Of a stretch of 64,000 bases of DNA, positions 42,044-63,918 are shown in pieces. Source of the stretch: Natrinema amylolyticum (GTDB lineage: Archaea > Halobacteriota > Halobacteria > Halobacteriales > Natrialbaceae); the NCBI RefSeq assembly GCF_020515625.1, contig NZ_JAIWPJ010000001.1:620001-684000 (forward strand), written 5' to 3'. The notes beneath the pieces are model-generated. The model saw nothing but the letters and a program-made list of their open reading frames with translations. It did not search any database and was not told where the DNA came from. Both the position numbers and the translations under genes were made by a program. Within the stretch, counting starts at the first letter, position 1; the number at the start of each line of letters is the position of its first letter.

Positions 42044-43039
42044 TTACGCCGACGGCCGCCGTGCGAGTTGCGAGCGGAAGATCGGCTCGAACCCCTCGAG
42101 GTAGGTTCCGACGTCGAGCGAGTCGACCTCGTCGCAGTAGTCAGTAGCGGCCTCGTACTCCCGACACCACTGGTCGACGAACTCGGCTTCGATCCCGGAG
42201 TCGCGAATCCGGCCGACCACCGGGTCGACGGTCGCGTCGGTCGGCTCTGCTCGGATCGCTCGGAGTTCTTCGTGGGAAACGACCCCCGAGTCGAGGGCAC
42301 GAATCACGACGCCCGAACTGTAATCGCCTTCGGCGAGTTCCCGCTCCCAGGTGGCGATCCAGTTGCCGATCCGCGCCATCCGCTGACCGTGAGTGACGAC
42401 CGTCCGAACGGTCGAGAGCTCCCGGGGCTCGAACGCGAGGCCGTTCGCGAGGTCGATATCGGCGAACGGGAAGAGCATCATGTTGTAGACGTCGTACGTC
42501 CGGAGTTCCCGTTCGCCCGCGAGGCCGGGGTACTGGGCCAGCAGTGCCGAGTAGTCGACCGACTGCAGCGCTTGCCGGACGTCGAACCGGAACAGGTCCG
42601 CGAACTCGTCTGCGCGCGGACTCGCCGCGTAACACGCCAGCAGCGCGTCCCAGAGTTCCTGCTGGAATCGAACGTACGTCCCGTCGACGCCCTTTCGAGT
42701 CGGATCGGCGGGTCTGGAATCGAACGGAACCAACAGCAGTTCCTCGAGAGTCGTCCGGTCGCCGTGGCGCTCGGCGACATCGTCGATGACGGTGATGAAC
42801 ATCGTGGCGAGTACTTTCGCGTCGCGGACGCGCTGTCCGTACCCGTCGTCGACACATGACAGTCTGAATTCGGGTTCGACCGTGTCGAACCACCGCCACG
42901 TCGTTCGGCTCCGGTCCCCGATCAGTTCGTCGTATGCGTCGGCGAGCGGTCGAACCGTTTCCGAGAGCGTCCGTTGGGGCGCATGCGAGAACGGATCCGT
43001 CTCGACTTCGAGCGTGGGATACGTCGGTTTGGCATTCAT
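42044..43039 (-). CDS. Class I terpene-synthase-like protein
   Basis: A 331-residue protein that I read as an isoprenoid cyclase. Asp-rich motif: DDVAE at 86-90, inside an alpha-helical FITVIDDVAERHGD context. NSE-type metal motif: Asn226, Thr230, Glu234 in NWIATWERE. Pyrophosphate-sensor Arg180 (ELRTYDVYNMM) lies exactly 46 residues before Asn226, the spacing established for class I terpene synthases. The length matches single-domain microbial enzymes. It would ionise a prenyl diphosphate to make a terpene. The usual Asp after Asn226 is Trp, so activity is uncertain. It is monocistronic with no modifying enzyme beside it; a TATA-like CTCTTTTACT is at 43061-43070. Confidence 0.6.
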   Translation of the reverse strand: MNAKPTYPTLEVETDPFSHAPQRTLSETVRPLADAYDELIGDRSRTTWRWFDTVEPEFRLSCVDDGYGQRVRDAKVLATMFITVIDDVAERHGDRTTLEELLLVPFDSRPADPTRKGVDGTYVRFQQELWDALLACYAASPRADEFADLFRFDVRQALQSVDYSALLAQYPGLAGERELRTYDVYNMMLFPFADIDLANGLAFEPRELSTVRTVVTHGQRMARIGNWIATWERELAEGDYSSGVVIRALDSGVVSHEELRAIRAEPTDATVDPVVGRIRDSGIEAEFVDQWCREYEAATDYCDEVDSLDVGTYLEGFEPIFRSQLARRPSA

Positions 43040-43070: not shown

Positions 43071-43153
43071 TTTCGCCAATCGTCCTCATAGATTAGTTAT
43101 AGCTATCGAGTGCAGTGGGATCGGAACGAAACCGGACGAATACTCCTTTTGTG

Positions 43154-43885
43154 ATGAGCGTGAACGACTCGAGTATGTCGGCAGACGATGGCGAACACGA
43201 TACAGGCGTACACGTGCTCCCGATCACGGTCGAATACGGCGACCGGCAGATCACGATCACTCCGACGCTCGTCGAAACTGAACGCGGTCTGATCCTGATC
43301 GACGCCGGTCCCCAGGGTTCCCTCGAGGGCGTTCGAACCCATCTGCGATCGCTAGGGTACGAACTCACCGATATCTGGCTCGTCCTCCTGACTCACCACG
43401 ACGCGGACCACGCCGGTGGCCTCGCGGACCTGCTCGAGCGAGTCGATGCGGTCGTCGCGACCCACCGCGACGAAGCGCCGTACATTTCGGGCGAATCGGA
43501 GCCGATCAAGGGCGACGGCGATCGGTATCCGCCCGTCGACGTCGATATCGAGCTGGCGGACGGGGTCCGGCTCCCGACGCTCGCTGGGCCGATGGAAGTG
43601 GTCGCGACGCCCGGCCACGCGCCCGGACACGTCTCGCTGTACCTCCCGGACGGGAACCTGCTCCTCGCCGGCGACGCGCTCGTCGCGGACGGCGGTGAGG
43701 GAACCGACGGTGAGGAACCGCTCGCCGGCCCGAAGCCGCAGTTCACACCGGAGATGGATCGCGCGATCGAGTCCGTCGGGACGCTGGCGGCCCTCGAAGT
43801 CGATCACACCGTCTGCTATCACGGCGGCTACGTAGACCACGGAAGCGACCGGATTCGAGAGATTTACGACCGGCTCCGGGAGTGA
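43154..43885 (+). CDS. MBL-fold metallohydrolase
   Basis: A 243-residue single-domain metallo-beta-lactamase-fold enzyme. The metal motif is LLTHHDADHAGG: His81, Asp83 in place of the second His, Asp85 and His86, a variant common in glyoxalase-II-like branches. Further ligands lie in ATPGHAPGHVSLYLP and LLLAGDALVA. The substrate is unknown; hydrolysis of a thioester, phosphodiester or lactone is possible. The start at 43154 (MSVNDSSMSADD) could also be seven codons later. It is divergent from the terpene-synthase-like gene and may or may not be related. Confidence 0.85.
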   Translation: MSVNDSSMSADDGEHDTGVHVLPITVEYGDRQITITPTLVETERGLILIDAGPQGSLEGVRTHLRSLGYELTDIWLVLLTHHDADHAGGLADLLERVDAVVATHRDEAPYISGESEPIKGDGDRYPPVDVDIELADGVRLPTLAGPMEVVATPGHAPGHVSLYLPDGNLLLAGDALVADGGEGTDGEEPLAGPKPQFTPEMDRAIESVGTLAALEVDHTVCYHGGYVDHGSDRIREIYDRLRE

Positions 43886-61443: not shown

Positions 61444-63918
61444 TCACACCTGCCGATAGTATTCGAAAACGCTGGCAAGCAATTCGCGCTGACCGACGCG
61501 CAGGTGCTGGTGGAATGTCGGTTGCGTGATCCCGAGGAGGGCTGCGAGATCCTCTCCGTTTTTCTTGCGGGGATTGTCAAAAAATCCCCCGTGGAAGGCG
61601 ACCTGTAACACCTCGTACTGCCGGTCTGTTAGTCGGTTAGCGATCTGCGACCAGGGGCCGTCATCTGACGACTGATCATGTTGAACGTCTCGAGAGAGCA
61701 GTTCTGTACCGGCAAATTCGGTCTCGAACAGTTCCGTGAACTGCCGGAGATTGGTGTCCGCATAGGTTCTAACAACGACCGTTCCGCGGCCATTTGTGGC
61801 GTGCATCGCTACGAGTTGAACTCCCTGTTCAGCGACGTACTCGACGATCGGAGATTCTGTACTCTCAATCTTGAATATCGTTCCATCGCCGCTGTCATCG
61901 AGTTCGACAATCTCTTCGACGGACGGGAAATCTTCAGCCCACGACGTTACTACGGCGGGGGTCGCGTCCTGAACTCGGACGAATAGATGCACGGGTCTGC
62001 TCGACTGGGGCGACCAACTGATGAATTCGACCTCGCATTTGACGGCCGCCGAGAGAGCGACGGGAACTGACCGATCGTCTCGAACCGAGAAGGTGAGTTC
62101 GGCCACGTCGGTACCGTACCTCGTCGAGCGTCGCTGTGCCGAGTTGATCGCAGATCCGATGGTCTCCCCCAGTTCGGCGAGGATAGTCCGTTCGTCGGAA
62201 CCGAACGCATCACGCGTTTCCGCGTACACGATCAGTATATCGTATAGAATATTCTGATACGTAACCGGCACGTACGCGACGGATTTGTACCCGTTTGAAC
62301 GGGCATGTTCAATCCGCTTGGTAGGGAGCGAACTCCGTGCTATCTCAGGGATGATAGTGACCTCTTGGTCCGTTATCGCCTGAGCGAGTATCTCGTCGTC
62401 CGGGTCTCCTCCGAGCGATATCGTCTCGGTCAGTCCGTCACCGTCTCCGATTCCGGCCCGGGCGGCCGACGTTAGCTGATTCGACTCCGCGCTGTATCGC
62501 CCGATCCAGGCGTAGCGGTATCGATCGGCGGCCGCGAATCGCTCACAGACGAGCCGTTCGATATCGTCGCGTGTCGAGACGTGGACGAGCGCTTGGTTGA
62601 CGTCACGTATAACTTCGTTAACGTGATTCAACGCCGCGAGTTCGTCGCGCTTGTCTGTGAGCTCCTGCTCACGTTCGCGGAGCAGACGGTCTCGGTCCGC
62701 CCGGTCCAGTGCCGCGCCCACGTGGGCGGCGAAGATCCGTGCCAGATTGAGTTCGTACTGATTGAACGCGCACCTCTGGGTCGACCCGATATAGAGCAGT
62801 CCGTGGTGTCCCAGTGGCAGTTCGAGTTCGACCGAAAGCGTTCCGGGTGCCTCGTCGCCGTCCCGATACCCGTACTGGCGGCTATTGGCCTCGGCATCAA
62901 GGATATCATCGACGCCGAACGCTGCCTCGATCTTGTCGTCGGGCACCGCCGTTCGCGCAGCATCGGTCGCCGCCACCGGGCGTGTCGGCAACGGGTCGGT
63001 CGCTATCTCGTGGCTGATGAGGTAAGCTCTGCTCGCGTCCGCATCGAACAGTTCACTGACAGTCTCAACGGCAGTCTCGCAGACCGCTTCCCGCTCCGTC
63101 ATCGTCATCAGGTCCCGTGCAGTCGAAAGCAATGCGTCGGTGGCGCGCTCGCGGTAGCGGCGGTCCGTAATGTCGTGCGTGATGACGAGCCCCCGCTCGC
63201 GGTCGTCGATCGTAACGCAGCGGACGCGTGCCTCGACCCAGAACGGGTCCCGTCCGTCCAACTCACAGCGCCAGTCAACGACGGTGCTCTCGTCCTGGTT
63301 TCGCGTCCGTAACCATTCAGCGACACCCATTCCATCGGCCGCTGGAACGGTGGCCTGGAGGTCGTCTATCGCGAGGCCCGCTATGTCAGACTGTGCGATT
63401 CCCCAGTGTTCGCAGGCGACGGTATTGGCATCAACTACCTCGCCAGCATCGATGTCGAGGATCATCGCAGCATCGTCGACGGCGTTGAATAGTTCACGGT
63501 AAACAGCGCGGTTTCGCCTGCCGTCGACGACGGTTCTGACCCGATTCGCGAGGAGTTCGCACTGATCCGACCCAGTTACCCGCCGCATACAGTCCGCCGC
63601 CCCTGCTCGAATCGCGTCGGCGGCCACGGATTCCTCCCCCTCGCCGGTGAACAGGATACAGGGGAGGTCCGGGGTCGTTTCTCGCACTGCGTCGAAAAAC
63701 ACCGAACCGTCGCTATCAGTCACCTGACACCCGCTGACGATGCAATCGATCTCGTTCTCATCGAGTCGCTCGAAGCCCTCACGCGCCGACGACGCCTGCA
63801 GAACGTCGATATCAGGGTGGGCCCGTCCGAAATAATCGGCGACGAGCGACGTCGTCTGCGGGTCGTCGACACAGAGGAGCGTGTAGTTCGGTCGTTTCAT
63901 TTCTCGCTGCCGATACAT
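61444..63918 (-). CDS. Large sensor-regulator: degenerate REC, PAS, two GAF domains and HTH-10
   Basis: An 824-residue regulator of the bacterio-opsin-activator type. N-terminal receiver-like domain (about 10-130), but the phosphoacceptor place reads IVSGC with Gly63 instead of Asp. Then a PAS domain near 140-255 (FNAVDDAAMILDIDAGEVVDANTVACEHW), a GAF domain near 270-405, a coiled-coil linker, a second GAF near 430-590, a bat-type conserved region, and the C-terminal HTH-10 domain (LTDRQYEVLQVAFHGGFFDNPRKKNGEDLAALLGITQPTFHQHL). It probably controls transcription in response to light, oxygen or small ligands. Met7 (MKRPNYTLL) is an alternative start. AT-rich sequence upstream to the window end includes its promoter. 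Confidence 0.85.
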   Translation of the reverse strand: MYRQREMKRPNYTLLCVDDPQTTSLVADYFGRAHPDIDVLQASSAREGFERLDENEIDCIVSGCQVTDSDGSVFFDAVRETTPDLPCILFTGEGEESVAADAIRAGAADCMRRVTGSDQCELLANRVRTVVDGRRNRAVYRELFNAVDDAAMILDIDAGEVVDANTVACEHWGIAQSDIAGLAIDDLQATVPAADGMGVAEWLRTRNQDESTVVDWRCELDGRDPFWVEARVRCVTIDDRERGLVITHDITDRRYRERATDALLSTARDLMTMTEREAVCETAVETVSELFDADASRAYLISHEIATDPLPTRPVAATDAARTAVPDDKIEAAFGVDDILDAEANSRQYGYRDGDEAPGTLSVELELPLGHHGLLYIGSTQRCAFNQYELNLARIFAAHVGAALDRADRDRLLREREQELTDKRDELAALNHVNEVIRDVNQALVHVSTRDDIERLVCERFAAADRYRYAWIGRYSAESNQLTSAARAGIGDGDGLTETISLGGDPDDEILAQAITDQEVTIIPEIARSSLPTKRIEHARSNGYKSVAYVPVTYQNILYDILIVYAETRDAFGSDERTILAELGETIGSAINSAQRRSTRYGTDVAELTFSVRDDRSVPVALSAAVKCEVEFISWSPQSSRPVHLFVRVQDATPAVVTSWAEDFPSVEEIVELDDSGDGTIFKIESTESPIVEYVAEQGVQLVAMHATNGRGTVVVRTYADTNLRQFTELFETEFAGTELLSRDVQHDQSSDDGPWSQIANRLTDRQYEVLQVAFHGGFFDNPRKKNGEDLAALLGITQPTFHQHLRVGQRELLASVFEYYRQV

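Follow-up and report, generated by a model that had tools for sequence, protein, structure and literature searches.

A class I terpene synthase-like protein family of haloarchaea and related Archaea with a probably altered diphosphate-recognition site

A gene of Natrinema amylolyticum, located in a stretch of 64,000 nucleotides that was analysed as a whole (the window), encodes a member of an archaeal protein family which, judged by fold, motifs and selection, is highly probable to be an active class I, i.e. ionisation-initiated, terpene synthase-like enzyme. The computed results concern the fold, the sequence family, how far the motifs are conserved, selection (purifying) and the gene neighbourhood; catalysis, the number of metal ions, substrate, product, the role of Arg223 and regulation are what we infer. 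Archaea make large amounts of prenyl diphosphates. According to one paper, terpenes in Archaea had until then been reported a single time, as predicted clusters (PMC8600319), and the open-access literature searched yielded no description of a class I terpene synthase from Archaea. The gene, its motifs and its two neighbours are given below; residue numbers refer to the 331-residue window protein, P0001, unless stated otherwise.

42044..43039, minus strand: terpene synthase-like gene, 331 aa, ATG at 43039, stop codon ending at 42044
42770..42784, minus strand: Asp-rich motif DDVAE, residues 86-90, where the helix corresponding to helix D ends
42500..42502, minus strand: Arg180, at the canonical pyrophosphate-sensor position, Arg in only 15/94 family members
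42488..42496, minus strand: helix-G break, residues 182-184, with Asp183 at the canonical linker position (-43)
42371..42373, minus strand: Arg223, one turn ahead of Asn226, Arg in 90/94, candidate substitute diphosphate-binding residue
42338..42364, minus strand: NSE-type triad NWIATWERE, residues 226-234, on helix H
43115..43885, plus strand: metallo-beta-lactamase (MBL)-fold hydrolase, divergent, its start 76 bp from the start of the terpene synthase-like gene, PF00753 at 91.1 bits
40639..41982, plus strand: cystathionine gamma-synthase-type gene, convergent downstream neighbour

The original prediction of a terpene synthase-like protein was made from the letters only, and a direct check of the residues found the open reading frame to be real and 331 aa long, with DDVAE at 86-90, NWIATWERE at 226-234 and R180 exactly 46 residues before N226. 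Such a motif combination is rarely met by chance: among 771 neighbouring non-family ORFs of the fetched loci only three have DDxx[DE] and, 120-160 residues further on, Nxxx[ST]xxxE, none of the three with an Arg at -46, and shuffling of P0001 gave the Asp-rich plus NSE pattern in 0.18% of cases and the pattern with Arg at -46 in 0.03%. The class assignment itself is supported by profile, fold and the conservation of both metal motifs, Asp-rich and NSE. PF19086 (Terpene_syn_C_2; terpene synthase family 2), one of the profiles that had been suggested as a check, matches residues 80-253 with 28.1 bits, above the curated Pfam cut-off of 23.7 bits, and at E up to 1 it is found in 29 of 31 diverse family members; methanogen members stay below the cut-off and those of the Methanosarcina type have no match. 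PF00348 gave no Pfam match in P0001 even at E up to 10, and NCBIfam held no useful model for the archaeal family. Among the PDB sequences, phmmer with P0001 reached a best E of only 0.11, and a search with the family profile did not reach any solved terpene synthase. In 14 control genomes PF19086 had no match, from which absence elsewhere is not to be read.

The isoprenoid-synthase fold expected for such a protein, a different fold having been named as a refutation, was indeed obtained. AlphaFold2 models were built from a shallow alignment of eight sequences for P0001 (pLDDT 73.7, pTM 0.75, with locally low confidence in residues 160-186) and for the L007 ortholog, which is 65% identical to P0001 (pLDDT 78.8, pTM 0.78). 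The best VIA matches were 7e4n for P0001 (Z 16.1, rmsd 3.6, 250 aligned) and 9jr6 for the ortholog (Z 18.8, rmsd 4.0, 275 aligned). For both models the listed Foldseek/VIA matches, the VIA list being a realignment of the Foldseek matches with families outside it possible, contain only class I isoprenoid synthases and proteins sharing their fold, namely terpene synthases from bacteria, fungi and plants, prenyl diphosphate synthases and N-prenyltransferases. The top PDB matches were T-muurolol, aristolochene, 10-epi-cubebol and Streptomyces diterpene synthases as well as FPPS/GGPPS, and in these models terpene synthases and prenyl diphosphate synthases are inseparable by fold alone. The Streptomyces type I diterpene synthases 9m25 and Sat1646 (7e4n) and the T-muurolol synthase (9hqd/9hqm), all among the best structural matches, share 12-16% identity with the archaeal models, and since the range of Z is shared with other isoprenoid synthases, the substrate is not readable from these matches. 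In the P0001 model, helix 65-92 has the Asp-rich motif at its end, and helix 207-236 carries the NSE motif. In the better model, that of the L007 ortholog, a break separates helices 169-174 and 177-191 (L007 numbering; +7 for P0001), which interrupts helix G at P0001 residues 182-183. Class I terpene synthases have a helix-G break at the corresponding place. The presumed arrangement of the active site is based on where the motifs sit on these helices.

Conservation was counted in 94 distinct haloarchaeal and methanogen relatives, the most distant having about 19% identity. The second metal motif, Nxxx[ST]xxxE, is present in 94/94, with N226 and E234 invariant and T230 in 90 (Ser in four); in the Asp-rich motif D87 is invariant, D86 is found in 91 (Asn in three) and E90 in 81, with Asp in a further 12. 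D196, D239 and D309 are each conserved in all 94. R233 is Arg in 93 and Lys in one, R223 is kept in 90 and W227 in 89, and Trp231 is near-invariant in the archaeal family. Basic residues kept in at least 75% are R43, K75, R142, R155 (R or K), R212, R223 and R233. Asp183 is Asp or Glu in 73, the Asn following the NSE triad is unconserved, and only 23 relatives have an R[YF] dimer within their C-terminal stretch. Close orthologs have dN/dS values of 0.10-0.27, and on these sequences the gene is under purifying selection. Given the essentially invariant metal residues and a dN/dS of about 0.1-0.27, the protein is very likely an active, Mg-dependent enzyme and not a degenerate one.

The site that differs is that for diphosphate recognition. 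Arg180 had been taken for the pyrophosphate sensor, and although it stands at the right distance from N226, it is ruled out as a family-conserved sensor: position 180 is W in 26 of the relatives, E in 21, R in 15 and L in eight, with others in the remainder. The column is certain, since there is no gap between 180 and 226 and the count in the alignment equals the plain offset from Asn226. Arg180 is therefore probably not functional as a sensor. The Trp noticed in place of Asp at the second position of the triad proved to be a feature of the family (W227), but the metal ligands N, S/T and E are intact; the residue after the NSE Asn is not among these three. Of the suggestion that the protein might be inactive or altered, the second half stands, since conservation is lacking for the sensor Arg, for the Asp that pairs with it and for the RY pair, whereas inactivity is unlikely because the metal ligands are kept and the gene is under purifying selection. 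A degenerate pseudo-enzyme is for the same reasons, dN/dS and invariant ligands, an unlikely candidate. Class I terpene synthases usually have a sensor Arg, an Asp directly after the NSE Asn and an RY pair, but these are not obligatory.

In SdS, the sensor Arg forms bonds with the diphosphate as well as with the Asp immediately after the NSE Asn (PMC8450962), and given this pairing, a Trp for the NSE Asp together with an unconstrained position 180 is what a coupled loss predicts. SmTS1, the sestermobaraene synthase from Streptomyces mobaraensis, has likewise lost both, with Gly180 for the sensor Arg and NQRYSYFKE for the NSE Asp, yet it is active on C25 GFPP (PMC8450962); such a double loss thus does not mean inactivity. 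The comparison is by description, and it has a limit in that SmTS1 has NDLTV for DDxxE, whereas the Asp-rich motif of the archaeal family is standard. Diphosphate recognition has probably been rebuilt in the archaeal family, and Arg223 and Arg233 may carry the diphosphate. Taken as a whole, the family resembles the microbial class I terpene synthases of PF19086 in the profile match over the cut-off, in the size of about 330 aa with a single alpha domain, in the Asp-rich motif near 90, the Nxxx[ST]xx[KR]E near 230, the helix-G break and the 'GD' after the triad; it is unlike them in that the RY pair, the sensor Arg and the NSE Asp are not conserved, in the near-invariant Trp227, Trp231 and Arg223, in its archaeal hosts and in that no NCBIfam model hits it. 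In NDxxSxx(K/R)E, position 233 corresponds to the canonical K/R, and Arg223 is, to our knowledge, specific to the archaeal family.

According to the proposed mechanism, three Mg2+ held by D86/D87/E90 and N226/T230/E234 would bind a linear prenyl diphosphate by its diphosphate group, which would then depart, and the resulting cation would be cyclised or quenched inside the cavity of the helical bundle. The conserved Arg233 and Arg223 would probably take over part of the diphosphate recognition. The most likely substrates would be FPP, GGPP and possibly C25 GFPP, which haloarchaea already make for lipids and carotenoids, and adjacent sensor-regulators would probably control expression in several lineages.

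The same evidence bears on three other readings. The best of them, although unlikely, is a prenyl transferase with the terpene synthase fold that transfers the prenyl group to a small acceptor instead of cyclising it. DabA and KabA transfer a prenyl group to an amino group, and DabA (Z 15.1) and DsKabA (Z 14.5) are among the matches of the P0001 model, with Z values that we rate as the same; altered diphosphate-binding residues could go along with an altered reaction, and in Halobellus limi a SAM methyltransferase is the next gene. What was seen in common between the archaeal family and DabA/KabA is, however, the fold only, the family's profile is a terpene synthase model, and no acceptor-related neighbour conserved across the family was seen. 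Chain elongation by a trans-prenyl diphosphate synthase is the least probable reading and one to which we give hardly any weight. The family does share the fold of GGPPS/FPPS (PF00348), and GGPP/polyprenyl synthases match as well as terpene synthases do, but it is PF19086 and not PF00348 that was found, Nxxx[ST]xxxE replaces the second DDxxD in every relative, which led to the rejection of this assignment, and the genome of Natrinema amylolyticum has three separate polyprenyl synthases over the cut-off.

If the protein were a terpene synthase relative devoid of catalysis, such as a regulatory sensor of prenyl diphosphates, this would account for the RY pair, the sensor Arg and the NSE Asp having been lost and for the regulators that often adjoin the gene. 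Such a dead relative is nevertheless quite improbable in view of the metal ligands retained in all 94 relatives, of purifying selection and of SmTS1, which is active without the equivalent Arg and Asp (PMC8450962). An active terpene synthase-like enzyme remains our preferred reading.

The protein had been taken for a single case, but it belongs to a family with matches in 119 of the 391 genomes sampled from the class, 51 of the 125 genomes of the same taxonomic family, and in other families of the phylum, where the matched genomes include some (G434, G623, G624, G560, G544 and G658; more divergent G720, G703, G547, G685 and G718) that are presumably methanogens, judged by kinship. Named loci with the gene are from Natrinema, Haloterrigena and Natronorubrum, and plasmids add Halorussus, Halobellus, Salinigranum and Halobaculum. 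The plasmid collection gave six matching records, all haloarchaeal and with every relative annotated as 'hypothetical protein', and no close bacterial relative was seen there; viral contigs had no relatives. Across haloarchaea and some methanogens the family is apparently uncharacterised. A divergent Methanosarcina-type relative (L105:2086-3051, minus; L102:5662-6651, plus; L106:5717-6691, minus; L101) has about 320 aa, DDxxD and NxxxTxxxE without a PF19086 match, and about 20% identity to P0001 with the same invariant residues. One locus (L043, genome G044) carries two adjacent, clearly different family genes in tandem on one strand. In three genomes of the same genus (G045, G046 and G047) the match is split near residue 260-280 within one open frame of 419-421 aa, as if by an in-frame insertion.

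In Natrialbaceae, the family gene stands alone between the convergent cystathionine gamma-synthase gene, whose ortholog in Natrinema thermotolerans carries the annotation 'cystathionine gamma-synthase', and the divergent MBL-fold hydrolase. The hydrolase is within two genes of the family gene in 11 loci; the pair is kept in Natrialbaceae relatives and is retained in L044 though the remaining synteny is lost. In lineages beyond Natrialbaceae, regulators are frequent. PAS-GAF-BAT-HTH_10 proteins are at most two genes away in 20 of 62 loci, HalOD1 in 19, FilR1-type wHTH in nine and DUF7344 in six, and at least one such regulator is found in 30 of the 62, which are phylogenetically non-independent. 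The share of BAT proteins among the genes falls from 8.1% within two positions to 0.8% at positions three to four and 0.4% beyond; genomes have 9-43 of them (14 genomes counted), and that of Natrinema amylolyticum has 43 BAT matches. The arrangement varies, with regulators divergent in Halobellus and downstream on the same strand in Halobaculum. The presence of Bat-type, HalOD1, DUF7344 and FilR1-type neighbours is most simply read as a sign of signal-controlled expression. The neighbours showed no tailoring enzyme in common. In Halobellus limi (L152:5908-9235) the family gene is followed by genes for a SAM-dependent methyltransferase and a prenyltransferase/squalene-oxidase-repeat protein, possibly a small terpenoid cluster. 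The window itself also holds, at 61681-62106 on the minus strand, a BAT domain, which is part of a Bat-type regulator encoded by an open frame of 844 aa.

A more far-reaching reading, which we put forward tentatively and hold to be possible rather than probable, is that of an old archaeal family in haloarchaea and methanogens, those of the Methanosarcina type included, that converts the lipid precursors GGPP or C25 GFPP into a terpenoid by means of a rebuilt diphosphate site, with Arg223/Arg233 in place of sensor Arg and RY, the synthesis being switched by Bat-type or other sensor-regulators. If true, this would mean native, regulated terpene natural-product chemistry in Archaea. For terpene chemistry in this domain the gene offers a concrete lead, and an active site without the sensor would test which of the parts that trigger diphosphate departure are really needed. 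With a conserved, unnamed family and its intact metal sites at hand, the question whether Archaea make cyclic terpenes, and what for, becomes testable in cultivable strains.
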